A stretch of 64,000 nucleotides of DNA from Variovorax boronicumulans. GTDB lineage: Bacteria; Pseudomonadota; Gammaproteobacteria; Burkholderiales; Burkholderiaceae_C. The notes under the pieces are model-generated. The model was not told the DNA's origin. It made no database searches and saw only the letters and a program-made list of their open reading frames with translations. Numbering within the stretch: position 1 is the stretch's first letter; each line of letters starts with the position of its first letter. Below are positions 15,453-30,506 of the stretch, in pieces. The position numbers and the translations under genes are program-made. Location of the stretch: positions 496,001 through 560,000 of the forward strand of contig NZ_JAUSSG010000002.1 of the NCBI RefSeq assembly GCF_030812215.1, in the 5' to 3' direction.

Positions 15453-15468
15453 AGGCACGGATGTTGCA
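15453..15468 (+). promoter_or_regulatory. sigma-54 promoter of the NIT-ANTAR regulator gene
   Basis: AGGCACG-GATG-TTGCA matches the -24/-12 consensus TGGCACG-N4-TTGCW at every position but the first, with correct spacing between the GG and GC pairs. It lies 31 bases ahead of the regulator start codon. Two further close copies stand before the nitrate transporter genes. Confidence 0.8.
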
Positions 15469-15499
15469 GCAACGGTGTGCGTCCCCTTCCCCACCCACC

Positions 15500-16780
15500 A
15501 TGAAATCCGGCCTGCACTTCCTCATCGCCGCCCGCCAGTGCGAAATCGACGAGCTCGACCAGCTCGCGCGCACCAGCGAGCTGGTCGGCCTGATCGGCCG
15601 GCTGGTGCATGCGCTGCAGCGCGAGCGCGGCATGTCGAACGTGTTCCTCGCCTCGCGCGGCCGGCGCTTCGCCGACCAGCGCGATCCGCAGATCGCCGAA
15701 TGCCGGGCGCTGGAGCAGGCGGTGCGCAACGGATTCGACCAGTTGGAAACCGAAGCCCGCCAGCGCGCCAGCGCCGGCAACAGCGCACGCCTGTTCAGCC
15801 GCATCGCCTGGGTGCTGCCGGGGCTGGACGCCCTGCCCGCACTGCGCGGCCGCGTCGGCGCGCTCGAACTTTCCCCGGCGCAATCGACCGCGGCCTTCGC
15901 CAAGCTCGTCGCCGGCCTGCTGGCCGTGGTGTTCGAGGCGGCCGATGGCGCCACCGATCCCGAGATTTCGCGCCTGCTGGTCGCGATGTTCAACTTCATG
16001 CAGGGCAAGGAGTTCGCGGGCCAGGAGCGCGCCTTCGGCGCCGCCACGCTGGCGCTGGGCCGCAGCAACGAAGCGCAGCGGGTTCAATGGCTGCACCTCA
16101 TCGAATCGCAGGAGCGCTGCTTTCACGTCTTCACCGATTTCTCGAGCGACGAGGTGCTGGCGCTCTGGCGCGAGAGCGAGGCCGATGCCACCATGGCCGA
16201 GCTCGAACGCCTGCGCCGCATCGGCACCACGCCGGCCGCGGCGCCGGACGCGCAGTACAGCCAGTTGAGCCAGGACTGGTTCGACTGCTGCACCCGCCGC
16301 ATCGACGCCATGCGCATGGTCGAAGACCGCCTGGCCGCCGACCTGCGCGCTCTCTGCAACCGCAAGACCGCGCAAGCGCGCACCGACCTCGCGGCCTACC
16401 AGCAACTGCTCGGCACGCTGGCGCCGCAACAGTCCGGCGAGGCCCTGTTCTTCGACGATGCCGGCACGCAGGCCGTGGCCCCCGCCTCGTACGGCCGTGT
16501 GCTGGAGCGCTCGGTGCTGGACATGGTGCAGGAGCAGTCGCAGCGCCTGCAGGCCATGAGCGACGAGCTCCAGACCGTGCGCGCGTCGCTCAACGAGCGC
16601 AAGGTGGTCGAGCGTGCCAAGGGGCTCCTCATGGCGCACCGGCGTCTGAGCGAGGACGAGGCCCACAAGATGCTGCGCCAGACCGCCATGAACCAGAAGC
16701 GCCGGCTGGTCGACGTGGCCGAGTCGATGCTCGCCATGGCCGATTACCTGCCGATGCCCGATGCCCGTGGGCCGCGCTGA
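15500..16780 (+). CDS. nasR: nitrate-sensing NIT-domain ANTAR antitermination regulator
   Basis: This 426-residue protein has the architecture of NasR of Klebsiella: an all-helical NIT sensor domain and a C-terminal RNA-binding ANTAR domain. The NIT region opens with [14 protein letters not shown] (about residues 39-52) and runs to about residue 270. The ANTAR helix bundle at about residues 350-418 contains [20 protein letters not shown] and the conserved C-terminal Leu-rich helix. In Klebsiella, nitrate or nitrite binding lets NasR release attenuation in the nasF leader. Here the gene is followed by a leader with exactly such an attenuator in front of nrtA. Start MKSGLHFL at 15500 follows a sigma-54 site. 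Confidence 0.88.
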
Positions 16781-16910: not shown

Positions 16911-16926
16911 TGGCACGCAGTTTGCA
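16911..16926 (+). promoter_or_regulatory. sigma-54 promoter of the nitrate ABC transporter operon
   Basis: TGGCACG-CAGT-TTGCA is a perfect match to the sigma-54 consensus. Transcription would start near 16937, just ahead of the first leader hairpin. No NtrC site was looked for systematically. Confidence 0.9.
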
Positions 16927-16939
16927 TAAGTGAGTACAT

Positions 16940-16984
16940 AAGACCTTCGTGGTCTTCAGGCAGGCGGCACCCAACGGCGGGTGT
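16940..16984 (+). ncRNA. ANTAR-recognition double hairpin in the nrtA leader
   Basis: Two adjacent small hairpins lie at the 5' end of the predicted leader RNA. Hairpin 1 (16940-16956) is AAGACC/GGTCTT with a five-base loop TTCGT. Hairpin 2 (16967-16984) is GCACCC/GGGTGT with the six-base loop AACGGC, which has A at position 1 and G at position 4, the residues conserved in ANTAR-bound hexaloops. Position and order match the NasR-responsive leader of Klebsiella nasF. Hairpin 1 is non-canonical in loop size. Confidence 0.7.
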
Positions 16985-17001
16985 CTCCCACCGAACCGGA
17001 C

Positions 17002-17068
17002 AAAGGCGTCCCCATCCCGCAAGGGCTCGTTCGCGAGCAGCCCTTGCGTGGTCGGGACGCCTTTTTTT
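17002..17068 (+). terminator. leader attenuator (intrinsic terminator) before nrtA
   Basis: A long hairpin pairs AAAGGCGTCCC (from 17002) with GGGACGCC (17054-17061), with an inner perfect repeat CGCAAGGGCT/AGCCCTTGCG, and is followed by seven T. It lies 52 bases before the nrtA start codon and after the sigma-54 promoter, so it must stop transcription unless antiterminated. It is the natural target of the NIT-ANTAR regulator encoded just upstream. Confidence 0.92.
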
Positions 17069-17119: not shown

Positions 17120-18364
17120 ATGACCGACCTGCTGAAAACCCGCCTCAGCCGCCGCCGCGTACTGCAAGCCGCCGCCATCGGCGCCGTGGGCATCGACCCC
17201 GCGCTGCGCGCCGCCGTCTGGGCCCAGGGCTCCGACAAGCCCGAAAAAGAAGAAGTCAAGATCGGCTTCATCCCGCTGACCGACTGCGCGAGCGTGGTGA
17301 TGGCCTCGGTGCTGGGCATCGACAAGAAATACGGCGTGAAGATCGTTCCCAGCAAGGAAGCCAGCTGGGCCGGCGTGCGCGACAAGCTCTCCAACGGCGA
17401 CCTGGACATGGCGCACGTGCTCTATGGCCTCGTCTACGGCATGCACCTGGGCCTGAGCGGCCCGAAGAAGGACATGGCCGTGCTCATGACCCTCAACAAC
17501 AACGGCCAGGCGATCACGCTCTCGAAGAAGCTCTCCGACAAGGGCGCGGTCGATGCCGCCTCGCTCGCAAAGCTCATCGCCACCGAGAAGCGCGAATACA
17601 CCTTCGCCCAGACCTTCCCCACCGGCACGCATGCCATGTGGCTCTACTACTGGCTCGCCTCGGCCGGCATCGATCCGTTCAAGGACGTGAAGAACATCAC
17701 CGTGCCGCCCCCGCAGATGGTGGCCAACATGCGCGTGGGCAACATGGACGGCTACTGCGTAGGCGAGCCCTGGGGGCAGCGCGCGATCATGGACGGCATC
17801 GGCATCACCGCCATCACCACGCAGGACATCTGGAAGGACCACCCCGAGAAGGTGCTCGGCTGCACCGCCGAGTTCACCAAGAAGTACCCCAACACGGCAC
17901 GCGCCGTGACCGCCGCGATCCTCGAGGCGAGCAAGTGGATCGACACCGGCCTGCAGAACAAGAACAAGATGGCCGAAACCATTGCCGACAAGAGCTACGT
18001 CAACACCAGCGTGGACGCGATCAACCAGCGCATCCTGGGCCGCTATGTCAACGGCCTGGGCAAGAGCTGGGACGACCCGAACCACATGAAGTTCTACAAC
18101 GGCGGCGCGGTGAACTTCCCGTACCTCTCGGACGGCATGTGGTTCCTTACGCAGCACAAGCGCTGGGGCCTGCTGAAAGAGCATCCGGACTACCTGAAGG
18201 TGGCCACCGAGATCAACCGCATCGACATCTACAAGCAGGCCGCCGCCGCCACGCAGACGCCCGTGCCCAAGGACGTGCTGCGCACCAGCAAGCTCTTCGA
18301 CGGCTCCGTGTGGGACGGCAAGGACCCGAAGAAGTACGCCGAGTCCTTCAAGCTCCATGTCTGA
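17120..18364 (+). CDS. nrtA: nitrate ABC transporter substrate-binding protein, CmpA/NrtA family
   Basis: This 414-residue periplasmic nitrate (or nitrite) receptor opens with a twin-arginine export signal (SRRRVLQAAAIGAVG), after which the mature protein begins with VKIGFIPLTDCASVVMAS, the family's ligand-domain opening. The YCVGEPWGQRA segment is also characteristic. The ATG at 17120 has GGAG at 17107-17110 and lies after the leader terminator, so expression depends on antitermination. It is the first gene of a three-gene importer operon with nrtB 13 bases downstream. Bicarbonate-binding CmpA relatives exist, but the nitrate context favours nitrate. Confidence 0.92.
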   Translation: MTDLLKTRLSRRRVLQAAAIGAVGIDPALRAAVWAQGSDKPEKEEVKIGFIPLTDCASVVMASVLGIDKKYGVKIVPSKEASWAGVRDKLSNGDLDMAHVLYGLVYGMHLGLSGPKKDMAVLMTLNNNGQAITLSKKLSDKGAVDAASLAKLIATEKREYTFAQTFPTGTHAMWLYYWLASAGIDPFKDVKNITVPPPQMVANMRVGNMDGYCVGEPWGQRAIMDGIGITAITTQDIWKDHPEKVLGCTAEFTKKYPNTARAVTAAILEASKWIDTGLQNKNKMAETIADKSYVNTSVDAINQRILGRYVNGLGKSWDDPNHMKFYNGGAVNFPYLSDGMWFLTQHKRWGLLKEHPDYLKVATEINRIDIYKQAAAATQTPVPKDVLRTSKLFDGSVWDGKDPKKYAESFKLHV

Positions 18365-18377
18365 GGAGAAACGCACC

Positions 18378-19307
18378 ATGGTCAGCGCTGTTTTTCACTC
18401 CCCGCTCGAAGCGGTCGCCTCGCAGGCCACCGCGCCTGTTGTGCCCAAGCCCGCAGCCGCTGCGCCTGCCGCCGTGGTGGCTTCCGCGGCCCCGGCGCCC
18501 GAGCCCCGCAGCCGCACGCCCATCGACCTGCGCGCCTTCTGGATGCGCGTGCTGCCGCCGCTCGCGGGCTTCGGCCTGCTGCTGCTGGTCTGGGAGCTGG
18601 TGGCCATGAAGAGCACCACCGGCTTTCCCACGCCGCTCGCCACCTGGCAGCAGGCGGTCACCGTGTTCAGCGATCCGTTCTACAGCAAGGGGCCAAACGA
18701 CCAGGGCGTGGGCTGGAACGTGCTCTCGTCGCTGCAGCGCGTGGCACTGGGCTTCGGCCTCGCGGCGCTGGTGGGCATTCCGGCGGGCTTCGCGATCGGA
18801 CGCTTCGAATTCCTTGCGCGCATGTTCAATCCGCTCATCAGCCTCCTGCGCCCGGTGTCGCCGCTCGCGTGGCTGCCCATCGGCCTGCTGGTGTTCAAGG
18901 GCGCGAACCCGGCGGCCATCTGGACCATCTTCATCTGCTCGATCTGGCCGATGGTCATCAACACCGCCGTGGGCGTGCAGCGCGTGCCGAGCGACTACAT
19001 GAACGTGGCGAAGGTGCTCAATCTTTCCGAATGGAAGATCCTCACCAAGATCCTCTTTCCCGCCGTGCTGCCCTACATGCTCACCGGCGTGCGCCTGGCC
19101 GTGGGCACCGCGTGGCTCGTGATCGTCGCGGCCGAGATGCTGACCGGCGGCGTGGGCATCGGCTTCTGGGTATGGGACGAGTGGAACAACCTCAACGTCG
19201 CCAACATCATCATCGCGATCTTCGTGATCGGCATCGTGGGGCTGGTGCTGGAGTTCGCGCTCATCAAGCTGGCTACTGCATTCACGTTCGAAGAGGTGAA
19301 GTCATGA
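18378..19307 (+). CDS. nrtB: nitrate ABC transporter permease
   Basis: This 309-residue inner-membrane permease of the SsuC/NrtB type starts with a roughly 45-residue Ala/Pro-rich cytoplasmic leader, then about six hydrophobic helices. The EAA-type coupling motif lies around residues 205-225 (VPSDYMNVAKVLNLSEWKIL). The ATG at 18378 is preceded by GAGGAG at a proper distance. An ATG 21 bases earlier overlaps the nrtA stop and is less likely. Its stop overlaps the ATPase start (ATGA). Confidence 0.92.
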   Translation: MVSAVFHSPLEAVASQATAPVVPKPAAAAPAAVVASAAPAPEPRSRTPIDLRAFWMRVLPPLAGFGLLLLVWELVAMKSTTGFPTPLATWQQAVTVFSDPFYSKGPNDQGVGWNVLSSLQRVALGFGLAALVGIPAGFAIGRFEFLARMFNPLISLLRPVSPLAWLPIGLLVFKGANPAAIWTIFICSIWPMVINTAVGVQRVPSDYMNVAKVLNLSEWKILTKILFPAVLPYMLTGVRLAVGTAWLVIVAAEMLTGGVGIGFWVWDEWNNLNVANIIIAIFVIGIVGLVLEFALIKLATAFTFEEVKS

Positions 19308-20113
19308 ACGACGATTCGAAGTACATCGAGATCCGCGACGTCGAACAGCGCTTCAAAACCGCCAAGGGCAGCTTCCTGGCATTGCGCGACATCAACCTGA
19401 ACGTCGCCAAGGGCGAGTTCATCACGCTCATCGGGCACTCGGGCTGCGGCAAGTCGACGCTGCTGAACCTGATCGCCGGGCTGACCACGCCGACGCAGGG
19501 CGTGCTGCTGTGCGCGAACCGCGAGATCAAGGGCCCGGGCCCCGAGCGCGCCGTCGTATTCCAGAACCACTCGCTGCTGCCCTGGCTCACCTGCTTCGAG
19601 AACGTGTACCTCGCCGTCGAACGCGTGTTCTCCGCCACCGAGAGCAAGGCGCAACTGCGCCAGCGCACCGATGCGGCACTGGCCCTCGTCGGCCTCACGC
19701 CCGCCGCGCAGAAGCGCCCCGGCGAAATCTCCGGCGGCATGAAGCAGCGCGTGGGCATCGCCCGTGCGCTGTCGATGGAACCCAAGGTGCTGCTGATGGA
19801 CGAGCCCTTCGGCGCGCTCGACGCCCTGACCCGCGCCAAGCTGCAGGACGAGCTGCTCGCCATCGTGCAGAAGACACACAGCACCGTCGTCATGGTCACG
19901 CACGACGTGGACGAAGCCGTGCTGCTGAGCGACCGCATCGTGATGCTCACCAACGGCCCCGCCGCCACCATCGGCGACGTGCTGGCGGTGGACATCGCCA
20001 GCCCGCGCAACCGCGTCGAACTGGCGGAAGACCCGGCGTACGTGCATGCGCGCAAGGCGGTGATCGATTTCCTCTACACGCGCCAGGCGCATGTGGAGAA
20101 GGTCGCGGCCTGA
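19304..20113 (+). CDS. nrtD: nitrate ABC transporter ATP-binding protein
   Basis: This 269-residue ABC ATPase powers the nitrate importer. Walker A is GHSGCGKST, the ABC signature reads ISGGMKQRVGIARALSMEP, Walker B is VLLMDEPFGALD and the switch histidine lies in VMVTHDVDEAVLLSD. It resembles the single-domain NrtD rather than NrtC, since no C-terminal binding-protein domain is attached. The ATG overlaps the nrtB stop by ATGA. It converges with the next gene across a 24-base gap. Confidence 0.93.
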   Translation: MNDDSKYIEIRDVEQRFKTAKGSFLALRDINLNVAKGEFITLIGHSGCGKSTLLNLIAGLTTPTQGVLLCANREIKGPGPERAVVFQNHSLLPWLTCFENVYLAVERVFSATESKAQLRQRTDAALALVGLTPAAQKRPGEISGGMKQRVGIARALSMEPKVLLMDEPFGALDALTRAKLQDELLAIVQKTHSTVVMVTHDVDEAVLLSDRIVMLTNGPAATIGDVLAVDIASPRNRVELAEDPAYVHARKAVIDFLYTRQAHVEKVAA

Positions 20114-20137: not shown

Positions 20138-21418
20138 TCAGGACATGATGACCTGCAGGCTGTGCTCGTACCACCCGGTGAGGCGCTCGAAGGTGTCGAC
20201 GAGCGCTTCGCTGGAACGCACCAGCGTGGCGCGGCCTTCGGGGCTGTCGAGCGCTTGCACGCCGCCTACGAGGCGCAGCCATTCGTCTCGCGCCGTCATC
20301 AAGCCGGCGCGAATCTCGGGTGAGCTGAGCGGCGCGCGCTCCAGTTCCACGAGCGCGGCTTCGAACTCGTTCATGGTCGGCAGCAACCGGTCGCGCGAGG
20401 CGCTGGCGGCGAGCGTCGAAGCCAGCAGCGCATCCTTGGCCAAGCGCTGCGCCCGCATGCGCTGCCGCCCGCAGATGTTGACGATGCGCAGCGCGCGCCG
20501 TGCGCCCGAAGCTTGCAGCGCCTCCGTCATCGCTTCGGCCGCGAGCAGCAAGGCCTCGCCGCGCGCATCGATCTCCGCAAGCCCCTGCGGTGTGGGTTTC
20601 ACGGGCAGTGCCGCACTCAACCCGTGCCATGCCGCCTGCACCTCGCCAAGCGCACGCACGCCGGCAGCGCCCAAGTCGAGGGCCGACAGGTGATCCAGGT
20701 TCTGCTGCACCCGCTCGGTCGACTGCGTGCGCAGGACCCGCGCGCGCTGCACGTCGATGCCCGCGAGCAGTTGCGCCGCCACCCGCACCAGGCGCTGCGA
20801 CAGCATGCGCAGTTGCCCGGCGCGGTTGATCGCCTCGGCCCACTGCGCGGCCTCGATGACCGAGCGCGACACTTCGCCGAGCCGCAGATTGGCATGCATC
20901 GCGGCGCCGCGCAGCAGGCCAAAGGCCTCGTCCTCGCCGATGCCGCGCGCGGACATCAGGAGGCCCTTGGCGCGATCGATCCATTTGCGCTCGTCCATGC
21001 GGGTGCGCAGGTTGTCGAGTTCGGTGCGCAACGCGGTTTCACGCATCCATCGGGCCTGCGCGCGGGCCAGCAACGCAGGAATCGACAGCGCATCGAGCGG
21101 CGCCCATGCATGCACGCCGAGCGCAACCAGCGCCTCGTGCTGCACACCCTCCAGCGGCGCACCGGCCACGCTCACCGCGCAGGGCGGCACGCCGTTCCAG
21201 TTCTCCAGCGCATCGCGCAACGCCAGCAGTTGCGCCGCGTCGGGCAGGCAGGCCAGCACCTGTTGCGGTGCAAGCGCATCCGCCTGCTGCACCAGCGTGC
21301 GGCAGGTGGCGCGCCCGAGCACCGTGGCGCCGGCACCCGCGAGGCCCTGCCGCAGCGGCTCCGGCAAGGGCCCGGAGGCATCGAATTCATTGGGCAGGAC
21401 GAGAAGAAGGGAAGTCAT
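20138..21418 (-). CDS. ANTAR regulator with tandem NarX P-box-like (PilJ-type) sensor motifs
   Basis: The 426-residue protein has three parts. Residues 1-115 are a receiver-like domain without an obvious phosphorylation pocket, as in NasT (MTSLLLVLPN opening). Residues about 125-192 are an ANTAR RNA-binding domain with DERKWIDRAKGLLMSARGIG. Residues 195-426 are a helical region carrying two copies of a motif resembling the nitrate-binding P-box of NarX/NarQ: INRAGQLRMLSQRL at 197-210 and IVNICGRQRMRAQRL at 312-326. No membrane helix or signal peptide is seen, so sensing would be cytosolic. It is divergent from the MFS nitrate transporter, whose leader has an ANTAR-type hexaloop hairpin. Confidence 0.85.
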   Translation of the reverse strand: MTSLLLVLPNEFDASGPLPEPLRQGLAGAGATVLGRATCRTLVQQADALAPQQVLACLPDAAQLLALRDALENWNGVPPCAVSVAGAPLEGVQHEALVALGVHAWAPLDALSIPALLARAQARWMRETALRTELDNLRTRMDERKWIDRAKGLLMSARGIGEDEAFGLLRGAAMHANLRLGEVSRSVIEAAQWAEAINRAGQLRMLSQRLVRVAAQLLAGIDVQRARVLRTQSTERVQQNLDHLSALDLGAAGVRALGEVQAAWHGLSAALPVKPTPQGLAEIDARGEALLLAAEAMTEALQASGARRALRIVNICGRQRMRAQRLAKDALLASTLAASASRDRLLPTMNEFEAALVELERAPLSSPEIRAGLMTARDEWLRLVGGVQALDSPEGRATLVRSSEALVDTFERLTGWYEHSLQVIMS

Positions 21419-21482: not shown

Positions 21483-21498
21483 GGGCACGCCTCTTGCA
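21483..21498 (+). promoter_or_regulatory. sigma-54 promoter of the MFS nitrate transporter gene
   Basis: GGGCACG-CCTC-TTGCA matches the -24/-12 consensus at all but the first base. Transcription would begin near 21509, at the foot of the leader hairpin. Confidence 0.8.
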
Positions 21499-21509
21499 TC
21501 GAATGGGGC

Positions 21510-21529
21510 GCGGTGTAACGAAGCACCGC
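21510..21529 (+). ncRNA. ANTAR-type hexaloop hairpin in the MFS transporter leader
   Basis: GCGGTGT/GCACCGC (one G-T pair) closes the six-base loop AACGAA, with A1 and G4 as in ANTAR targets. The loop shares its first four bases with the AACGGC loop in the nrtA leader. It starts at the predicted transcription start. The remaining 150 bases of the leader hold further inverted repeats (21593-21614, 21643-21659 region) and a T5 tract, but I could not draw a convincing single terminator there. Confidence 0.6.
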
Positions 21530-21678
21530 TTTGGTGAGGCTGCAGGCTCCTGCAACCGGTTCGGCCATGCACAGGCCGCACGCACCCCCACGCCGACAGC
21601 GTCCGCTGCCGGCACTCCGACCCCAACCCCGTCCGTCGACACGACCTCTCCCAGGTCGCGCCGCGGCTTTTTGCACCT

Positions 21679-22938
21679 TTGAACACCATGTCCGGTTTCA
21701 GGAATTTCTTGCAGTCAGGCCACAGTCCCACGCTGTTCGCGGCGTTCCTGTACTTCTCGTTCTCCTGCTGCATCTGGGTGCTCAACGGCGCCATGGCACC
21801 CTTCATCGGCGAGACCTTCGACCTCTCGCCCGCGCAGAAGGGCCTGATGCTGTCGGTGCCGATCATCGCGGGCGCGCTCATGCGCTTTCCGCTGGGCATC
21901 CTCTCGCAGTACATCGGCCGCAAGAAGGCCACGCTGGTGGAGATGGGCCTCATCGCCGTGGCGATGCTGTTCGGCTTTTTCTTCGTCAAGAGCTTCAACG
22001 ACCTGCTCGCCATGGGCGTCTTGCTGGGCATTGCCGGCGCAAGCTTCGGCGTGGCGCTGTCGCTGGGCTCAGGCTGGTTCCCGCCGCAGCACAAGGGCCT
22101 GGCGATGGGCCTCGTGGGCGCGGGCAACGTGGGCACGGCGGTGTCGGTGCTGGTGGCGCCGCCGCTTGCGCAGTGGCTGGGCTGGCAGGCGGTGTACGGC
22201 GTGGCCGCGGTTGCGATCCTGATCCCGATGGTCGTGATGGTGATCTTCGCCAAGGAGCCGCCTGACGTCGACAGCCACGCGAGCTTTCGCGAGCACATCG
22301 CCTGCCTGTTCGAGAAGGACGGCTGGGTTTTCAGCCTGATCTACGGCGTGACCTTCGGCGGCTTCATCGGCCTCACCACCTTCCTGCCCTCGTACTACTA
22401 CGACCAGTTCGGCGTGAGCAAGGTGCAGGCGGGCCAGCTCACGATGCTCGCGGCCTTCATGGGCGCGGCGGTGCGCATCGTGGGCGGCTGGCTTTCCGAC
22501 CGCTGGGGCGGCGTGAACACCCTCACGGTGGTGCTGCTGGTGGTGGCGGTGGGCCTCGTGCTCATCGGTTTTTCATCGGGCTCGCTGGCGCTCACCACGC
22601 TGCTCCTGATCGTGTGCTTCGCCGCGCTGGGCGCGGGCAACGGTGCGCTCTTTCAACTGGTGCCGCTGCGCTGGCCGCTGAGCACCGCGGTGGCCGGCTC
22701 GATGATCGGCGAGATCGGCGCGCTCGGCGGCGGCCTGGTGCCCAACGCCATGGGCCTGTCGAAGCAGTACCTGGGCAGCTACACCTGGGGCTTCGTCTTC
22801 TTCGGTGCGCTCTCGCTGGCGATGCTGGGCGTGATGCGCGTCATGCAGATCCGCTGGACGCGCACCTGGGCCGAGAAGGGTGGCCGGGCGCGCACTTCAC
22901 CTGCTGCCACCCCGTCCCCCGCGCGGAGAGCCGCATGA
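21679..22938 (+). CDS. MFS nitrate/nitrite transporter, NarK/NasA family
   Basis: This 419-residue twelve-helix inner-membrane transporter carries both nitrate-signature glycine motifs: GLVGAGNVGTAVSVL in the fifth helix region and ALGAGNGALFQLVP in the eleventh. The typical arginine in ALMRFPLGILSQYIGRK is also present. It gives the cell a second nitrate uptake route beside the ABC importer. Starts at 21679 or 21688 are both possible. It sits 260 bases from the divergent ANTAR regulator, behind a sigma-54 promoter and a structured leader. The C-terminal tail is Pro/Ala-rich. Confidence 0.93.
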   Translation: MNTMSGFRNFLQSGHSPTLFAAFLYFSFSCCIWVLNGAMAPFIGETFDLSPAQKGLMLSVPIIAGALMRFPLGILSQYIGRKKATLVEMGLIAVAMLFGFFFVKSFNDLLAMGVLLGIAGASFGVALSLGSGWFPPQHKGLAMGLVGAGNVGTAVSVLVAPPLAQWLGWQAVYGVAAVAILIPMVVMVIFAKEPPDVDSHASFREHIACLFEKDGWVFSLIYGVTFGGFIGLTTFLPSYYYDQFGVSKVQAGQLTMLAAFMGAAVRIVGGWLSDRWGGVNTLTVVLLVVAVGLVLIGFSSGSLALTTLLLIVCFAALGAGNGALFQLVPLRWPLSTAVAGSMIGEIGALGGGLVPNAMGLSKQYLGSYTWGFVFFGALSLAMLGVMRVMQIRWTRTWAEKGGRARTSPAATPSPARRAA

Positions 22939-23039: not shown

Positions 23040-24746
23040 TCAGCGCGGCAGGAACAGCAGCCACACCACCAGCAGTGCGTTGAACAGCAACGACACGCCG
23101 AGGGCGATCTTGTAGAGCATCACCGGGTCTCGGCGCACGAGCGGCGTGGCCATGGGCGCACCGACGGGGCGCGAAGCACCGCGCTCCAGCGCGAGCAGCA
23201 TCTCCTCGGCGGTTTCGAAGCGCTCGCGCGGATCGCGGGCGACGGCCTTGCGCACAAGGTGGTCGAGCCACACCGGCACATCGGGCCGCAGCCGCGAGAG
23301 CGCGACCGGGTCGCGCCGGTAGCGCGCCACCTGGTAGGGCTCGATCTCGCCGTAGGGCAGGTGGCCGCCGAGCCACTGGTACAGCGTGGCGCCGAGCGCG
23401 AACAGGTCGCTGCCCGCGTCCGCGACACCGCCCTCTTCCCACTGCTCGGGATTGATGTAGCTGGGCGTACCCGCATGCAGTTCGCGCTGAGCCGCCCCTT
23501 CGCGGCCAGACAAGGCCACGCCCAGGTCGAGGATGCGCCAGCGCCCGTCGTCGCCCAGGTGCAGGTTGCCGGGCTTGATGTCCCGGTGCACCACGCCGTG
23601 GCGGTGCAGCCGGCCGAGCGCCTTGCTCACCTCGATGGCCGCGGCGACCACCTCGGCCACCGTGCCGCGCGCCCCGGACTTGCGCATCTGCTCCAGCGTG
23701 CGGCCGCCGTGCCAGTCGAACACGATGTAGAGCGCGCTCGCGTTCTCCGCGCGTTCGTGGACGCGAACGAAGCCGCCGCCCTCGCCGACACGCTGGCCCA
23801 GCCAGGCTTCGTGCGCCAACATCGCGCGTTCCTGCGGATCGCTGGCGCGCGAGGGGTGCAAGGTCTTGAGCGCCACCAGCTCGCGCGTGACCGGATGGCG
23901 CGCCTGGTACAGCAGGTGCACGCCGGTGTCGGCCACCAGGCCGGTGACGACGTAGCCGTCGAGCACGTCGCCCACTTTCAGCAAGGGCGGCGGTGCGAGC
24001 CGGCGTCCGTCGCCGAGTTCGTCGTCGAGCTGCCGCGCATCGAGGCCGACCACGCGGATCACCAGCGCGGTCGCGTTGTCGCGCGTGCCGGCGTCGAGCG
24101 CCGCATGCACCAGCGCCTCGCTCGCGGCTTCGGCATCGCCCTTCAGCGCGATCGCGGCCACCTGCTGCGGCTTGAGCACGCCGTGCACGCCGTCGGAGGT
24201 CAGCACGAAGCAGTCGCCCACGCGAACGTCGCCCTGCGCGTAATCGACGCGCACCTGGTCGTCCAGGCCGATGGCGCGTGTGAGGCGGCTGCGCATGTCG
24301 GGATGTTCGAAGGCGTGGTCGAGCGTGAGCGGCACGGCCGCATCGCCATCGGCGCGCACGCGCCAGGCGCGCGTGTCGCCCACGTGGGCCAGCGTGTAGC
24401 TCTGGCCGTGCAGCACCAGGGCGGTGAGCGTGGTGAGTGCGGTCGCGCCGCCCGCGCGGCGCCGGTTGTGATCGGCGAGCCAGGCGTTCTGTGCGCCGAT
24501 CAGGCGGTCGAGCGCGGCGGTCGGCTCCCAGGTGTCGGGCGTGGCGAAGTAGTCGGCCAGGAGGCCCATCACCGTGGTCTGCGCCGCCTCCAGGCCGCGC
24601 CCGCCGGTGGACACGCCATCGGCAATCGCCGCGATGAGCCCGCGCGCCTCGTCGCCCCGCGGCGCATGCACGGCACCGGCGAAATCCTCGTTCACCTCGC
24701 GGGGTCCGCGAAGGCTGCTGTAGCCGATGTCCACTTCAAAGCTCAT
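23040..24746 (-). CDS. bifunctional PP2C-type phosphatase and Ser/Thr protein kinase, membrane-anchored
   Basis: The 568-residue protein fuses two opposing activities. Residues 1-235 are a PP2C domain with metal-site motifs ADGVSTGG, HVGDTRAW, TSDGVHG and GTRDNATA. Residues about 262-520 are a Hanks-type kinase with ATP-lysine in VALKTL (Lys294), catalytic loop HRDIKPGN (387-394) and DLG in place of DFG (407-409). A single C-terminal hydrophobic helix (about 545-565) would anchor it with both domains in the cytoplasm. It lies inside the nitrate cluster, convergent with the MFS transporter and divergent from nirB. The targets are unknown. The start MSFEVDIGYS at 24746 follows the domain boundary. 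Confidence 0.88.
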   Translation of the reverse strand: MSFEVDIGYSSLRGPREVNEDFAGAVHAPRGDEARGLIAAIADGVSTGGRGLEAAQTTVMGLLADYFATPDTWEPTAALDRLIGAQNAWLADHNRRRAGGATALTTLTALVLHGQSYTLAHVGDTRAWRVRADGDAAVPLTLDHAFEHPDMRSRLTRAIGLDDQVRVDYAQGDVRVGDCFVLTSDGVHGVLKPQQVAAIALKGDAEAASEALVHAALDAGTRDNATALVIRVVGLDARQLDDELGDGRRLAPPPLLKVGDVLDGYVVTGLVADTGVHLLYQARHPVTRELVALKTLHPSRASDPQERAMLAHEAWLGQRVGEGGGFVRVHERAENASALYIVFDWHGGRTLEQMRKSGARGTVAEVVAAAIEVSKALGRLHRHGVVHRDIKPGNLHLGDDGRWRILDLGVALSGREGAAQRELHAGTPSYINPEQWEEGGVADAGSDLFALGATLYQWLGGHLPYGEIEPYQVARYRRDPVALSRLRPDVPVWLDHLVRKAVARDPRERFETAEEMLLALERGASRPVGAPMATPLVRRDPVMLYKIALGVSLLFNALLVVWLLFLPR

Positions 24747-24813
24747 GGGTCGATTCTCCATGGGCACTGCGCTTCTTTGTTGTCCGCTTGATTTCGAGGA
24801 AAGGTCCAGCCCC

Positions 24814-27273
24814 ATGAAGAAAAAAATGAAACTCGTGATGGTCGGCAACGGCATGGCCGGCGTGCGCACGCTCGAAGAGCTCCTGAAGATCGCGCCCGAC
24901 CTCTACGACATCACCGTCTTCGGCGCCGAGCCGCATCCGAACTACAACCGCATCCTGCTGTCGCCGGTGCTCGCGGGCGAGCAGACGGTGGACGAGATCG
25001 TGCTCAACAGCTGGGAGTGGTACAGCGACAACCACATCACGCTGCACGCGGGCAAGAAGGTGGTCGAAGTCGACCGCGTCAAGCGCATCGTGCGTGCCGA
25101 AGACGGTACCGAGGCCGCCTACGACCGCCTGCTGATGTGCACCGGCTCCAACCCCTTCATGCTGCCCGTGCCGGGCAAGGACCTGAAGGGCGTGATCGCC
25201 TACCGCGACATCGCCGACACCGACTACATGATCGAGACCGCGCGCACGCACAAGAACGCGGTGGTCATCGGCGGCGGGCTGCTGGGCCTGGAAGCAGCCA
25301 ACGGCCTGATGCTGCGCGGCATGAACGTGACCGTGGTGCACGTCATGCCCTGGCTCATGGAGCGCCAGCTCGACGACGTGGCGGGCAAGCTGCTGCAGAA
25401 GTCGCTCGAAGACCGGGGCCTCAAGTTCCTGATGGGCGCGCAGACGCAGGACATGGTCGGTGGCGAAGACGGCCGCGTGAAGGCCATCCGCTTCAAGGAC
25501 GGCACCGAGGTCGCGGCCGACCTCGTCGTCATGGCCGTGGGCATTCGCCCCAACGTCGAGCTGGCCGAGAAGATGCGCCTGCACTGCAACCGCGGCATCG
25601 TGGTCACCGACACCATGCAGACCGTGACCGATGCGCGCATCTACTCCGTGGGCGAATGCGCGGCGCACCGTGGCATCGCGTATGGCCTCGTGGCGCCGCT
25701 GTTCGAGCAGGCCAAGGTCGCGGCCAACCATCTGGCCCAGTTCGGCATCGGCCGCTACCTGGGTTCGCTCACTTCCACCAAGCTCAAGGTGACGGGCATC
25801 GACCTCTTCAGCGCCGGCGAATTCATGGGCGGCGAAGGCACCGAGGAAATCGTGATGAGCGACCCCTTCGGCGGCGTCTACAAGAAACTGGTGCTCAAGG
25901 ACGACAAGCTGGTGGGCGCCTGCCTCTACGGCGACACGGTCGATGGCAGCTGGTACTTCAAGCTCCTGCGCGATGGCCGCAGCGTGCACGACATCCGCGA
26001 CAAGCTGATGTTCGGCGAGTCGAACATCGGCGACACCGGCCACGAAGGCCACAGCAAGGCCGCGAGCATGCCCGACGATGCAGAGGTGTGCGGCTGCAAC
26101 GGCGTGAGCAAGGGCACCATCTGCAAGGCCATCAAGGACAAGGGCCTCTTCACGCTCGACGAGGTGAAGAAGCACACGAAGGCAAGTGCCAGTTGCGGCT
26201 CGTGCACCGGTTTGGTCGAGCAGATTCTGATGTTCACCGCCGGCGGCGACTACTCGGCCACGCCGAAGAAAAAAGCGATCTGCGGCTGCACCGACGTGAG
26301 CCACCAGGACGCGCGCGACGCGATCCGGAAGGAACACTACCTCACGCACGACGAGGTGTATCGCAACCTCGGCTGGCGCACGCCCAACGGCTGCGCCACC
26401 TGCCGCCCGGCCATCAACTACTACCTGATCAGCACCTGGCCGAAAGAGGCGAAGGACGATCCGCAGAGCCGCTTCATCAACGAGCGCAGCCACGCGAACA
26501 TCCAGAAGGACGGCACCTACTCGGTCATTCCGCGCATGTGGGGCGGCCACACCACGCCCGACGAGCTGCGGCGCATCGCCGATGCGGCGGACAAGTACAA
26601 GATCCCGACCGTCAAGGTCACCGGCGGCCAGCGCATCGACCTCCTGGGCGTGAAGAAGGAAGACCTCGAAGGCGTGTGGAAGGACATCGGCATGCCTTCG
26701 GGCTTTGCCTATGCCAAATCGCTGCGCACGGTGAAGACCTGCGTGGGCAGCGAGTGGTGCCGCTTCGGCACGCAGGATTCCACGCAGATGGGCAAGGACC
26801 TGGAGCGCGCGCTCTGGGCCATGTATTCGCCGCACAAGGTCAAGCTCGCGGTGTCGGGGTGCCCCCGCAACTGCGCCGAGGCCGGCATCAAGGACGTGGG
26901 CGTGATCGGCGTCGACTCGGGCTGGGAGCTCTACGTGGGCGGCAACGGCGGCATCAAGACCGAGGTGGCGCAGTTCCTCGTGAAGGTGAAGACGGCCGCC
27001 GAGGTGATGGAGTATTCGGGCGCCTTCCTGCAGCTCTACCGCGAGGAGGGCTGGTACCTGGAGCGCACGGTGCACTACATCGGCCGCGTGGGCCTGGACT
27101 ACGTGAAGAAGAAGATCCTCGACGACACGGACGGCCGCAAGGCGCTCTGGGAGCGGCTGCAGTTCGCGCTCGACGGCGAGCCCGATCCGTGGTTCGAGTC
27201 GGTCGAGGCCAACGTGGACGTGCGGCAATTCGCGCCGCTGTCGGTGCCGGCCCATTCCATCCAATCCGCCTGA
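24814..27273 (+). CDS. nirB: assimilatory nitrite reductase [NAD(P)H] large subunit
   Basis: NirB reduces nitrite to ammonium with six electrons from NAD(P)H. The 819-residue protein begins with an FAD/NAD(P) oxidoreductase part (MVGNGMAGVRTLEELL). Two BFD-like [2Fe-2S] modules follow (Cys426/428/461/464 and Cys490/492/527/530). The sulfite/nitrite-reductase repeats bind siroheme and [4Fe-4S] through Cys643, Cys649, Cys683 and Cys687. Start MKKKMKLVM has GAGGAAAGG just upstream. It heads the run nirB-nirD-nitrate reductase-ybiB-cobA, with nirD 13 bases downstream. The 67-base gap upstream shows no convincing sigma-54 site. Confidence 0.96.
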   Translation: MKKKMKLVMVGNGMAGVRTLEELLKIAPDLYDITVFGAEPHPNYNRILLSPVLAGEQTVDEIVLNSWEWYSDNHITLHAGKKVVEVDRVKRIVRAEDGTEAAYDRLLMCTGSNPFMLPVPGKDLKGVIAYRDIADTDYMIETARTHKNAVVIGGGLLGLEAANGLMLRGMNVTVVHVMPWLMERQLDDVAGKLLQKSLEDRGLKFLMGAQTQDMVGGEDGRVKAIRFKDGTEVAADLVVMAVGIRPNVELAEKMRLHCNRGIVVTDTMQTVTDARIYSVGECAAHRGIAYGLVAPLFEQAKVAANHLAQFGIGRYLGSLTSTKLKVTGIDLFSAGEFMGGEGTEEIVMSDPFGGVYKKLVLKDDKLVGACLYGDTVDGSWYFKLLRDGRSVHDIRDKLMFGESNIGDTGHEGHSKAASMPDDAEVCGCNGVSKGTICKAIKDKGLFTLDEVKKHTKASASCGSCTGLVEQILMFTAGGDYSATPKKKAICGCTDVSHQDARDAIRKEHYLTHDEVYRNLGWRTPNGCATCRPAINYYLISTWPKEAKDDPQSRFINERSHANIQKDGTYSVIPRMWGGHTTPDELRRIADAADKYKIPTVKVTGGQRIDLLGVKKEDLEGVWKDIGMPSGFAYAKSLRTVKTCVGSEWCRFGTQDSTQMGKDLERALWAMYSPHKVKLAVSGCPRNCAEAGIKDVGVIGVDSGWELYVGGNGGIKTEVAQFLVKVKTAAEVMEYSGAFLQLYREEGWYLERTVHYIGRVGLDYVKKKILDDTDGRKALWERLQFALDGEPDPWFESVEANVDVRQFAPLSVPAHSIQSA

Positions 27274-27286
27274 AAGGAAACGCGCC

Positions 27287-27691
27287 ATGAGCGAATGGAA
27301 AGCCATCTGCCGCATCGACGACATCCCCGTGCTCGGCGCGCGCCGCGTGGCACGGCCCGCGGGCGTGGACGTCGCCGTGTTCCGCAATGCCGAGGACCAG
27401 GTCTTCGCGCTGCTCGACCGCTGCCCGCACAAGGGCGGCCCGTTGAGCCAGGGCATCGTGTTCGGCACCAGCGTGGCCTGCCCGCTGCACAACTGGACCC
27501 TCGGGCTGGACGACGGCTGCGCCAAGTCGCCCGACGAAGGCTGCACGCCGAAGTTCGCGGTGAAGGTGGAAGGCGGGGTCGTGCACCTCGACGCGGGCGA
27601 ACTTGCGGCGCACGCCATCGACCTGGAGCGTCCGGTCGCCGGGCCGAAGCCCTTCGCCACGATGGCGATCCTGTCCACGGAAGAAAGCTGA
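27287..27691 (+). CDS. nirD: nitrite reductase [NAD(P)H] small subunit
   Basis: This 134-residue Rieske-fold partner of NirB keeps the full set of Rieske ligands (Cys46-x-His48 and Cys65-x2-His68 in RCPHKG and CPLHNW). The enterobacterial NirD has lost such ligands, so this subunit may hold a working [2Fe-2S] centre. AAAGGAAA precedes the start. It is seven bases from the nitrate reductase gene, in one operon. Confidence 0.94.
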   Translation: MSEWKAICRIDDIPVLGARRVARPAGVDVAVFRNAEDQVFALLDRCPHKGGPLSQGIVFGTSVACPLHNWTLGLDDGCAKSPDEGCTPKFAVKVEGGVVHLDAGELAAHAIDLERPVAGPKPFATMAILSTEES

Positions 27692-27698
27692 GCCCTTC

Positions 27699-30506
27699 AT
27701 GGTGCAAGAGACCCGGTCCACCTGTCCGTACTGCGGCGTCGGGTGCGGCGTGATCATCGAATCCGACGGCGCGCAGATCACCGGCGTGCGCGGCGACCCC
27801 GACCACCCGGCCAACTTCGGGCGTCTCTGCACCAAGGGCTCTACGCTGCACCTGACGGCCACGGCGCCGGTCACGCGGCAGGCGCGGCTCCTGCAGCCGC
27901 TGCAGCGCCTGGTGCGGGGCGAGGCGCCCACGGCCGTGTCGTGGGATGCGGCGCTCGGCAACGCCGCGGGCAAGTTCGCACAGGTCATCCAGGACCACGG
28001 CCCCGATGCCATTGGCTTCTACATCTCGGGCCAGCTGCTGACCGAGGACTACTACGTTTTCAACAAGCTCGCCAAGGGCCTCATCGGCACCAACAACGTC
28101 GACACCAACTCGCGCCTGTGCATGAGCAGCGCGGTCGCCGGGTACAAGCAGACGCTGGGCGCCGATGCGCCGCCGGCCTGCTACGACGACCTGAAGCACG
28201 CCGACTGCCTGTTCATCGTGGGCAGCAACACGGCGTGGGCGCACCCGATTCTTTTTCGCCGCATCGAGGATGCAAAGGCGGCCAACCCCGCGATGAAGAT
28301 CGTGGTGGCCGATCCGCGCCGCACCGACACGGTCGAGATCGCCGACCTGTTCCTGCCGATCCAGCCCGGCACCGACGTGATGCTGTTCCACGGCATGCTG
28401 CACCTGATGCTGTGGGAAGGCTGGACCGACGCGAAGTACATCGCCGAGCACACCAACGGCTTCGACGCGCTGAAGGCCACGGTGCGCGAATGCACGCCCG
28501 ACAAGGTGGCGCAGGTCTGCGGCATCTCGAAGGACGACCTGCTCGCGGCCGCGCGGCTGTTCGCCACCTCGCCCGCCACGCTGAGCCTCTATTGCCAGGG
28601 CCTGAACCAGTCTTCGAGCGGCACGGCGAAGAACGCGGCGCTCATCAACCTGCACCTGGCCACCGGCCAGATCGGCAAGCCGGGCGCCGGCCCGTTCTCG
28701 CTCACCGGCCAGCCCAATGCGATGGGCGGACGCGAAGTGGGCGGCCTGGCCAACCTGCTGAGCGCGCACCGCGACCTGGCCAATCCCGCGCACCGCGCCG
28801 AGGTGGCTGCGCTCTGGGGCGTGCCGTCGGTGCCGGAGAAGCCGGGCAAGACCGCGGTCGAGATGTTCCAGGCCGCCGCCGACGGCGAGATCCGCGCGCT
28901 GTGGATCGCCTGCACCAACCCCGCCCAGTCGATGCCCGACCAGGCCACGGTGCGCCGCGCGCTGGAGCGTGCCGAGTTCGTGGTGGTGCAGGAGGCCTTC
29001 TCCACCACCGCCACCTGTGCTTTCGCCGACCTGCTGCTGCCCGCCACCACCTGGGGCGAAAAGGAAGGCAGCGTGACCAACAGCGAGCGCCGCATCTCGC
29101 GCGTGCGCCCGGCCATCGCCGCGCCGGGCGAAACGCGGCACGACTGGTCGATTGCCACCGACTTCGCGCGTCGGCTCGAACAGCGCCTGGGCCGTGCGGG
29201 CACGCTCTTTCCCTACGACACCGCCGAATCGGTCTGGAACGAGCACCGCGAGACCACGCGCGGGCGCGACCTGGACATCACGGGCCTGAGCTACGCGATG
29301 CTCGACGACCTCGGCCCGCAGCAATGGCCGCTGAAGGAAGGCGAAAGCAGCGGCCGGGCACGCCTGTATGAAGACGGGGTGTTCCCCACGGCCGACGGCC
29401 GCGCCCGCTTCGTCGACACGCCCTATGCGCCGGTGGCCGAGGCCCGCGAGGCGCGCTACCCCTTCTCGCTCAACACCGGGCGCCTGCGCGACCAGTGGCA
29501 CGGCATGAGCCGCACCGGCACCGTGGGTCGCCTGTTCGGCCATGTGGCCGAGCCCGTGGTGCAGATGAACCCGCAGGACATGGCGCGGCGCCAGATCAAC
29601 GAAGGCGACCTGGTGCACCTGACCTCGAAGCGCGGCTCGATCATGTTGCCCGCGCGCGCGAGCACCGAGATCGGCCTCAGCCAGGCCTTCGTCGCGATGC
29701 ACTGGGGCGAGGAGTACCTGAGCGGATGCTCGTCGACCGGCACGCGGCTGGCCGGCATCAACGCGCTCACCACGCCCGCCTACTGCCCCACCTCGAAGCA
29801 GCCCGAGCTCAAGCACACGGCGGTGAAGATCCTCAAGGCCGAGCTGCCGTGGTCGCTGCTCACGATGGCCTGGCTCCCGACCGACGAGGTGCTGGCGGTG
29901 CACCGCGCGCTGCAGCCGCTGATGGCGATGTTTCCGTTCGCGACCTGCGTGCCGTTCTCGGGCAGCACCAAGGACGCGGCGGGCGCCGAGCGCAGCGGCC
30001 TCCTGTTCCGCGCGGCGGCTCACGATGCGCCAGCCGATGCGCTGCTCGAACAGATCGAAACCCTGCTCGGCCTGCAAAGCCCCGACACCCTGCGCTACGC
30101 CGACCGCCGGCGCGGCCAGCGCCGTTCGGTGCGGCTGGTGCGCCGCGCCGACCAGAGTGCGGGCCTGGAAGCCTTTTTGCTCGCGGGCGACACCAGCGCC
30201 GAAGCCTGGATCGCCACGCTGCTGCGGGAAGAACTGCCGGCGCAGAGCTACGGTCGCCTGCTGCTCTCGCCCGGCGCCCGTGCGCCGCTGGCAGTGCAGT
30301 CGCGCGGAAAACCGGTCTGCACCTGCTTCAACGTGACCGATCTGGCGATCCAGTCCGAGCTGGGCCGTTGCGGCGGATCGGCCGACGAGCGGCTGGCCGC
30401 ACTGCAAGGAACGCTGAAATGCGGCACGAACTGCGGCTCGTGCATCCCGGAGCTCAAACGCATGATCCGCATGACGCCCGCCGAGGCCGTCCCCGAGGGG
30501 GCATAA
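27699..30506 (+). CDS. assimilatory nitrate reductase catalytic subunit with C-terminal BFD-like [2Fe-2S] domain
   Basis: This 935-residue cytoplasmic molybdenum enzyme reduces nitrate to nitrite. The N-terminal [4Fe-4S] ligands are Cys9, Cys12, Cys16 and Cys44 (CPYCGVGC ... LCTKG). The bis-MGD molybdopterin domains follow, with NTGRLRDQWHGMSRTG in the dinucleotide-binding C-terminal part. A final module has Cys874, Cys876, Cys912 and Cys915 (CTCFNV ... CGTNCGSC), a BFD-like [2Fe-2S] domain as in Klebsiella NasA. No separate electron-transfer subunit gene (NasB/NasC type) is in the cluster. The gene is also called nasA or nasC in different species, so no symbol is assigned. Confidence 0.95.
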   Translation: MVQETRSTCPYCGVGCGVIIESDGAQITGVRGDPDHPANFGRLCTKGSTLHLTATAPVTRQARLLQPLQRLVRGEAPTAVSWDAALGNAAGKFAQVIQDHGPDAIGFYISGQLLTEDYYVFNKLAKGLIGTNNVDTNSRLCMSSAVAGYKQTLGADAPPACYDDLKHADCLFIVGSNTAWAHPILFRRIEDAKAANPAMKIVVADPRRTDTVEIADLFLPIQPGTDVMLFHGMLHLMLWEGWTDAKYIAEHTNGFDALKATVRECTPDKVAQVCGISKDDLLAAARLFATSPATLSLYCQGLNQSSSGTAKNAALINLHLATGQIGKPGAGPFSLTGQPNAMGGREVGGLANLLSAHRDLANPAHRAEVAALWGVPSVPEKPGKTAVEMFQAAADGEIRALWIACTNPAQSMPDQATVRRALERAEFVVVQEAFSTTATCAFADLLLPATTWGEKEGSVTNSERRISRVRPAIAAPGETRHDWSIATDFARRLEQRLGRAGTLFPYDTAESVWNEHRETTRGRDLDITGLSYAMLDDLGPQQWPLKEGESSGRARLYEDGVFPTADGRARFVDTPYAPVAEAREARYPFSLNTGRLRDQWHGMSRTGTVGRLFGHVAEPVVQMNPQDMARRQINEGDLVHLTSKRGSIMLPARASTEIGLSQAFVAMHWGEEYLSGCSSTGTRLAGINALTTPAYCPTSKQPELKHTAVKILKAELPWSLLTMAWLPTDEVLAVHRALQPLMAMFPFATCVPFSGSTKDAAGAERSGLLFRAAAHDAPADALLEQIETLLGLQSPDTLRYADRRRGQRRSVRLVRRADQSAGLEAFLLAGDTSAEAWIATLLREELPAQSYGRLLLSPGARAPLAVQSRGKPVCTCFNVTDLAIQSELGRCGGSADERLAALQGTLKCGTNCGSCIPELKRMIRMTPAEAVPEGA

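Follow-up and report, generated by a model that had tools for sequence, protein, structure and literature searches.

What does a protein do that joins an ANTAR domain to two copies of a nitrate-receptor-like motif, encoded amid the nitrate-assimilation genes of Variovorax boronicumulans? This is the question raised by a gene in the 64,000-nucleotide stretch of DNA analysed here (the window). Our answer, which we consider probable, is that its product, the fusion protein, is a one-component, nitrate- or nitrite-responsive ANTAR regulator of the adjacent assimilatory operon (MFS transporter, nirBD, nasC). The architecture, the invariant arginines, the NasR-like packing in the model, the RNA contacts, the gene neighbourhood and a covarying hairpin are supported by computation; nitrate binding and RNA control are what we infer for the protein.

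The open reading frame runs on the minus strand from an ATG at 21418 to a stop codon at 20138-20140 and encodes 426 amino acids. Along the chain follow a pseudo-receiver, the ANTAR domain and two PilJ four-helix bundles, each of which starts with a P-box/N-box-like helix (197-210 and 312-326). The gene and its parts are:

20138..21418, minus strand: gene (P0001) for the pseudo-receiver, ANTAR and tandem-PilJ protein (open reading frame, Pfam, models)
21083..21418, minus strand: pseudo-receiver domain, residues 1-112, without a conserved phospho-acceptor Asp (model, EutV match, residue counts)
20855..21013, minus strand: ANTAR RNA-binding domain, residues 136-188 (Pfam, helix limits, RNA-contact residues)
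20141..20863, minus strand: putative tandem PilJ sensor, residues 186-426, two four-helix bundles (AlphaFold2, NasR match)
20789..20830, minus strand: motif 1, INRAGQLRMLSQRL, residues 197-210, with Arg204 (sequence)
20441..20485, minus strand: motif 2, IVNICGRQRMRAQRL, residues 312-326, with Arg320 (sequence)

A first AlphaFold2 model of the whole protein (21 sequences, pLDDT 84, pTM 0.63) shows a long helix at 113-158, a helix at 162-176, a single unbroken helix at 180-219 that carries both the end of the ANTAR domain and motif 1, and then the two bundles. The first-pass annotation, made from the sequence alone, had described a protein without membrane helix or signal, with the two motifs at 197-210 and 312-326. 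The motifs lie exactly there, and neither a membrane helix nor a signal was found in the 426 residues: the highest 19-residue Kyte-Doolittle mean is 1.32 and the model is folded from residue 1. A membrane or exported protein is ruled out by this hydropathy. For comparison we used a family set of 60 rows including the window, of which 59 were analysed (L063 was left out); by genome labels these span at least 25 genera, and 16 of the 59 are from Variovorax or the window. The closest relatives that carry a name are 92% identical, in line with the genus Variovorax.

The N-terminus had been called receiver-like, which is right for the fold but not for a phospho-acceptor. Residues 1-112 alternate strands and helices in the model, as in a receiver-like alpha/beta fold, and EutV aligns with the whole-protein model over residues 1-192 (Z 13.6). 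Among the 59 family sequences, however, no Asp is common after strand 3 of the receiver (at positions 56-60, wherever Asp ranks among the four most frequent residues, it occurs in no more than 6 of 59 sequences), Lys is absent from the four commonest residues at 104-108, and no other region of the protein is conserved so poorly, which is why we speak of a pseudo-receiver. Phosphorylation is therefore an unlikely signal, and we rejected a phosphorylated response regulator, as neither the phospho-acceptor Asp nor the Lys after strand 5 is conserved in these 59 sequences. Up to residue 192 the protein resembles EutV, NasT, AmiR and Rv1626 in having a receiver fold, a coiled coil and an ANTAR domain; unlike them, it is without a conserved phospho-acceptor and carries a putative sensor of its own after the ANTAR domain, in place of a kinase or a ligand-binding partner.

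Partner proteins control AmiR (by AmiC) and NasT (by NasS). A receiver without a conserved phospho-acceptor might be controlled in the same manner here, with the tandem PilJ region helping dimerisation or having lost its ligand. The best Foldseek matches of the whole model, which are EutV, Rv1626 and AmiR, speak for this idea, as does the tandem domain of Pseudomonas aeruginosa PilJ, which has no conserved N-box and does not bind nitrate, according to the accessible part of the McpN paper (PMC6381276). We nevertheless regard partner control as unlikely, because the pseudo-receiver is the least conserved region while both PilJ arginines are invariant, and because probes made from the window's own proteins revealed no recurring neighbour beyond MFS, kinase, nirBD, nasC and nrtABC.

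An ANTAR domain had been claimed and was confirmed by Pfam (PF03861 at 136-188, 66.5 bits against a cut-off of 27.3). The ANTAR residues with which EutV contacts RNA hexaloops are known from the EutV-RNA structure, as described in the accessible part of PMC8934654, and we mapped these contacts onto the family through an alignment. Nine of the positions are kept in 51-59 of the 59 sequences, and the remainder are mostly like residues: R144 in 59, K145 in 55, R149 in 56 (plus 3 with K), K151 in 58, E162 in 51 (plus 8 with D), F166 in 57 (plus 2 with Y), R170 in 59, M174 in 59 and R179 in 56. The positions of EutV N173 and R175 deviate in the protein (H175, N177).

The C-terminal part has a two-stretch match to Pfam PilJ (PF13675) that scores 63.1 bits (cut-off 26.6) and is strongest at 194-263. 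A profile-profile alignment of its halves, 188-306 and 307-426, gives E 2.3e-17, so the repeat is not a chance recurrence of a motif, an explanation that we rejected, and the halves are homologous. Arg204 faces Arg320 in this alignment, as the first-pass annotation had proposed, and both are present in all 59 family sequences; the glycines of the GxxR nitrate-ligand pattern, which occurs twice (G201-R204 and G317-R320), are found in 59 (G201) and 56 (G317). Of the doubled NarX P-box-like motif that had been described, the doubling and the two GxxR patterns hold, but motif 2 departs from the P-box and N-box. Measured against the strict N-box, [IVL][ND]xAGxQRML[ST]Q in the accessible part of PMC6381276, motif 1 of the window differs at one place (L203, the NarX/NarQ P-box residue) and motif 2 at three (C316, R322, A323). 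Strict N-boxes are found in motif 1 of 6 and in motif 2 of 7 of the 59 sequences, so a full motif 2 is present in some relatives. That transcriptional regulators can carry PilJ domains with an N-box had been pointed out before by the McpN authors (PMC6381276, accessible part). Membership in the NIT family by sequence was rejected, with no Pfam match to NIT (PF08376) and an hhalign probability of 0.3, in a test that is weak because the NIT profile is shallow (Neff 1.9).

Modelled alone, residues 186-426 are predicted with confidence (AlphaFold2, 22 sequences, pLDDT 92.2), and so is the packing of the two bundles (pTM 0.90), which is that of the NasR NIT domain. The superposition on NasR (4akk_B) covers 236 of 241 residues (Z 15.9, rmsd 3.8), and the whole-protein model matches NasR over 249 residues (Z 15.7, rmsd 4.6). 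Z values in this range are also obtained with single bundles (McpN 15.0, LytS 16.9, NarQ 13.6), so Z by itself says "four-helix bundle" and coverage is the informative part. Among the 50 matches listed, NasR alone aligns over the full length of the tandem domain; the runner-up below 10 A, a talin entry, reaches 158 residues. The periplasmic region of P. aeruginosa PilJ (7zjr) likewise has two PilJ bundles in one chain, but superposes over 119 residues, about one bundle's worth. The comparison tells apart two known arrangements in which such bundles are paired. Foldseek found no match for the tandem domain at E 0.001 or better; NasR was 21st (E 0.35, TM 0.57).

Since the model matches NasR, Arg204 and Arg320 would be expected to lie close to each other. 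It had been suggested that the protein builds in one chain the two-arginine site that NarX makes by dimerising; NasR-like packing makes this a fair reading of the model, but the design is not new in principle, because NasR already forms its site within one chain. In NasR both arginines are kept, one glycine is replaced by glutamine and the site is asymmetric, according to the accessible part of PMC8199190; the counterpart motifs, read from the 4akk alignment, are apparently QCER and GQER. NasR of Klebsiella oxytoca (4akk) and the fusion protein thus share two side-by-side four-helix bundles, two arginines from one chain and an ANTAR output, and both are soluble one-component proteins of a nitrate-assimilation operon; by analogy, the fusion protein may share nitrate antitermination as well. 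They differ in that NasR has its sensor before the ANTAR domain, whereas in the fusion protein the ANTAR domain (136-188) precedes the presumed sensor (186-426); that NasR lacks the added pseudo-receiver; that the sensor region is a tandem PilJ without detected sequence homology to the NasR NIT domain (against the shallow NIT profile); and that the adjacent leader is different. With the kinases NarX and NarQ and the chemoreceptor McpN the protein shares the P-box/N-box helix with GxxR and the four-helix bundle. Those, however, are membrane receptors with a periplasmic sensor that holds nitrate between two chains, whereas here two bundles lie in one cytosolic chain.

The gene sits in a complete nitrate-assimilation cluster, in which the order is NIT-ANTAR, nrtABC, the fusion gene (in the opposite direction), the MFS transporter, a kinase/phosphatase gene (other strand), nirB, nirD and a nasC-like gene:

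15461..16780, plus strand: NIT-ANTAR protein (NasR type), second nitrate antiterminator of the cluster (Pfam, 4akk match)
17126..20113, plus strand: nrtABC-type nitrate ABC transporter genes (NMT1_2, ntrB TIGR01183 247 bits, ABC_tran)
21688..22938, plus strand: NarK-family MFS nitrate/nitrite transporter, first gene after the leader (TIGR00886, PF07690)
24814..27273, plus strand: nirB, nitrite reductase large subunit (TIGR02374, 925.9 bits)
27287-27691, plus strand: nirD-like gene (open reading frame)
about 27603-30506, plus strand: nasC-like reductase gene (open reading frame)

The NIT-ANTAR product matches NIT with 186.8 bits, ANTAR with 68.5 bits (Pfam) and 4akk at E 9.9e-48; its gene lies 3.4 kb from the fusion gene and has a dual-hairpin leader of its own. 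The MFS gene scores 243 bits against TIGR00886, below the cut-off of 311.7, and also matches PF07690. Of 60 loci, 59 have an MFS (nitrate transporter) or nirB gene no more than 3 kb away from the fusion gene; the exception, L020, is truncated at the end of its contig. NIT-ANTAR genes were detected at 18 of these loci, so the fusion does not depend on them; some of the 60 stretches are short, and some have a NasT-like ANTAR gene instead.

Other genes of the cluster and the genome deserve mention. A PP2C phosphatase/protein kinase fusion gene (23040-24869, minus strand) lies between the MFS transporter and nirB, and is found near the same place in most relatives. Several relatives, though not the window, have a stand-alone tandem-PilJ gene that separates nirB from nirD or, if no nirD was detected (L052, L149), adjoins nirB. 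Its product has about 250-300 amino acids (the start is uncertain), a signal-peptide-like beginning and, in most cases, near-perfect N-boxes (KAGRQRMLSQR). By its sequence it is apparently an exported candidate for nitrate or nitrite binding, encoded inside a cytosolic nitrite reductase operon. It occurs at:

L004, 3466-4170: stand-alone tandem-PilJ gene
L005, 3463-4167: the same
L007, 3442-4128: the same
L015, 3050-3754: the same
L059, L061, L063, L077, L085, L087, L088, L091 and L052: the same, further loci
L129, L132, L136 and L149: the same, control loci

The third ANTAR gene of the genome encodes 211 amino acids (L003 1096-1731; G000:C7, ANTAR 138723-138881). It directly follows a gene for what we take to be an AmiC-like ligand-binding protein, which presumably makes the pair resemble AmiC/AmiR.

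The proposed RNA target of the fusion protein lies in the divergent leader of the MFS/nirB operon, which contains:

21483..21498, plus strand: sigma54-like promoter element GGGCACGCCTCTTGCA, divergent MFS leader (promoter-element match)
21510..21529, plus strand: P1 hairpin GCGGTGT-AACGAA-GCACCGC, proposed target of the protein (hairpin search, leader alignment)
21637..21672, plus strand: imperfect terminator-like hairpin and U run, just before the MFS start codon (fold)

The window leader thus has one hexaloop hairpin and an imperfect terminator-like hairpin; no canonical second hairpin (P2) was found in it, and its fold is no better than that of shuffled sequences (z -0.93). The P1 loop is identical across the 16 Variovorax-type leaders aligned, and part of the genus lacks the U run. 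In Variovorax-like leaders the 3' arm of P1 (CACC) can, as judged by eye, pair with a downstream GGUG (21523-21537 in the window; also L053, L056, L021, L092), possibly forming a competing hairpin.

When 46 non-redundant regions were scanned by script for a hexaloop hairpin of at least five pairs located 27-40 nt downstream of the promoter GG, 41 had one; 200 rounds of shuffling that spared the promoter-like elements gave 6.6 on average and 11 at most. Three of the 41 picks were misplaced, and after hand correction P1 is present in 43 of the 46. Its stem is paired in 91.8% of cells, which drops to 25-55% in slid controls, and it has 56 double-changed cells, compared with 20.9 in shuffles that leave relatedness in place. 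These figures lean towards structure, as P1 was picked for pairing, a purine at loop position 1 and a G at position 4; the conservation of these two loop positions is partly by construction, because the finder required them. In 19 relatives a second hexaloop hairpin, P2, follows 43-47 nt on and also covaries, and between the two lies a further stem (helix 2) with 73.9% of cells paired; most of these two-hairpin leaders lack a run of five T. EutV targets normally have linkers of 5-12 nt, and a linker of 14 nt impairs induction, according to the accessible part of PMC3369931, so the long spacer between P1 and P2 would need helix 2 to join them.

Given that P1 forms a palindrome whose distance from the promoter hardly varies, the inverted repeat might instead be a DNA operator for a dimeric transcription factor. 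We consider this very improbable: five of the seven stem positions show paired changes, which leaves no single operator sequence, and a second covarying hairpin of the same kind follows in the 19 leaders. Moreover, judged by the sigma54 consensus and the promoter-to-start spacing, the repeat lies downstream of the expected transcription start. Loop conservation was not counted here, since the finder required it.

Several searches linked the RNA element, as we take it to be, to the fusion gene. A strict promoter-plus-P1 scan matched 32 of 46 non-redundant fusion loci, none of the reversed copies and 10 of 30 controls; of these ten matches, seven fell in nrtA-type leaders beside NasT-type genes and three preceded nirB. 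A covariance model was built from the 19 two-hairpin leaders, with E up to 1e-5 taken as a strong match. Eight of 12 fusion genomes not looked at before gave one strong match each, 120-264 nt from the fusion gene's matched part, compared with 3 of 28 genomes without the fusion, each before nirB (Fisher p 0.0007); the control genomes, 30 in all and 28 in this test, had been picked from the family search for absence of the fusion. A strong match was absent in 24 of the 33 fusion genomes outside the model set (20 of 21 and 4 of 12). Among those 21, Variovorax included, only G056 was strong, and most have P1 and no canonical P2. The window's own leader matches the three-hairpin model poorly (14.6 bits, E 0.72), and for the window we therefore claim P1 only. 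In G056 the leader precedes a nirB operon that is 2.25 Mb away from the fusion gene, which is what action in trans would predict. G139, G293 and G223 have no gene above the ANTAR cut-off other than the fusion, and their leaders carry P1.

Two other leader finders were discarded. Rfam narK gave no match over its cut-off in 44 genomes, where several of the best matches fell on nrtA or NasT-type loci, and it also responded to 3 of 14 control genomes; a dual-hairpin-plus-terminator scan matched only nrtA leaders of Variovorax-type loci, and one reversed copy. The MFS leader itself has no Rfam match up to E 5.

The window contains a second leader, that of nrtA:

16911..17068, plus strand: nrtA leader (hairpin/terminator scan, Rfam narK 28.4 bits)
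16911-16926: its sigma54-like element
16966-16985: its P1 (loop AACGGC)
16998-17011: its P2 (loop AAAGGC)
17002-17068: its terminator, overlapping P2

The terminator is strong and uses the 3' side of P2 (fold z -5.3). The narK RNA (RF03032) and the P11 RNA (RF00625) have ANTAR-like hexaloop hairpins, and both match the nrtA leader weakly (narK with 28.4 bits, below the gathering threshold of 43.2; P11 also below gathering), whereas the MFS leader differs from them in its second base pair and spacing. The nrtA leader is probably the target of the adjacent NasR-type protein.

It could be argued that the fusion protein, too, reads the nrtA leader, together with NasR, or yet another target, leaving the MFS hairpin to NasR or a further ANTAR protein. 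The full design of two hairpins and a terminator is seen in the window at the nrtA leader alone, and three genomes (G091, G103, G276), in which the fusion was not detected, combine a nirB leader with only a NasT-like ANTAR gene, located elsewhere. The leaders in question, which are of the fusion type, lie near 11279 in L133, at G103:C16:1077179-1077259 and at G276:C9:8710-8790; they indicate that other ANTAR proteins may read such a leader. Yet NIT-ANTAR genes accompany the fusion in only the 18 loci counted above, the MFS/nirB hairpin is present in 38 of 41 non-redundant loci without one (some, such as L057, L073, L074 and L078, have a NasT-like gene by nrtA), and the two kinds of leader differ in P1. 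Counted from the loop, the second base pair is G-C throughout the 42 distinct fusion-type rows and C-G in the window nrtA leader and seven nrtA-type leaders of control genomes. In the EutV system changed P1 closing pairs abolished induction (PMC3369931, accessible part), and the sequences hint that this flipped pair might tell the two leaders apart. Another target for the fusion protein is thus a rather doubtful proposition.

Together, our data suggest a model in which the fusion protein acts on the MFS/nirB leader. Each PilJ bundle would contribute one motif, G201xxR204 or G317xxR320, to a site between the bundles that holds nitrate or nitrite, in the manner of the NIT site within a single NasR chain and of the sites that NarQ and McpN form as dimers. 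The predicted helix with Arg204 (180-219) directly continues the last ANTAR helix, so binding could reset the ANTAR pair. The ANTAR domain would then grip the hexaloop hairpin or hairpins near the 5' end of the sigma54-driven leader, and expression of the operon would be allowed, probably by preventing a terminator or a start-blocking hairpin. The ligand, the direction of the response, the reading of the MFS leader by the fusion protein rather than NasR, and antitermination as the output are steps that we infer. The first-pass annotation had proposed a cytosolic nitrate sensor acting on RNA. This is supported in part: a soluble protein, arginines in 59 of 59 sequences, a NasR-like model, ANTAR contacts and a nitrate cluster with an adjacent hairpin leader speak for it, but motif 2 departs from the receptor motif.

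As a probable nitrate antiterminator the fusion protein is of a known kind; what is different is the reversed domain order, the other sensor and, in relatives, a leader class of its own. More tentatively, these proteins may form a separate class of nitrate- or nitrite-gated antiterminators, with a nitrate-binding helix that runs on without a break from the RNA-binding ANTAR helix, and a leader class that would be sigma54-driven and contain P1 and, in many relatives, a spacer stem and P2; in Variovorax-like cells they would provide a second nitrate switch beside NasR, the leaders being told apart by the flipped pair. Within the family, 56 of 299 genomes have a match that covers both ANTAR and PilJ (G116, divided between two contigs, is uncounted). 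At E 1e-20, 300 genomes at order level gave one further match (G510, residues 25-425), and 229 genomes at class level gave none outside the family and one PilJ-only match; fusion-type proteins are rare in the genomes sampled outside the family. A plasmid record names the protein by its PilJ domain only, and among the papers listed in a literature search, which covered text, no description of an ANTAR-PilJ protein was found; PMC3369931 presents 17 ANTAR architectures in a figure.

If the model is correct, the two-arginine nitrate site has been built a second way in one cytosolic chain, from a duplicated NarX/McpN-type domain and not from NIT. The sensor would be wired to RNA through a continuous helix, giving a clean system for ANTAR gating, which was called unresolved in the NasR work (PMC7496416, accessible part). 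Nitrate assimilation in many Burkholderiales would gain a likely regulator and a leader RNA, and with two nitrate antiterminators in one cluster, the specificity of RNA recognition becomes directly testable.
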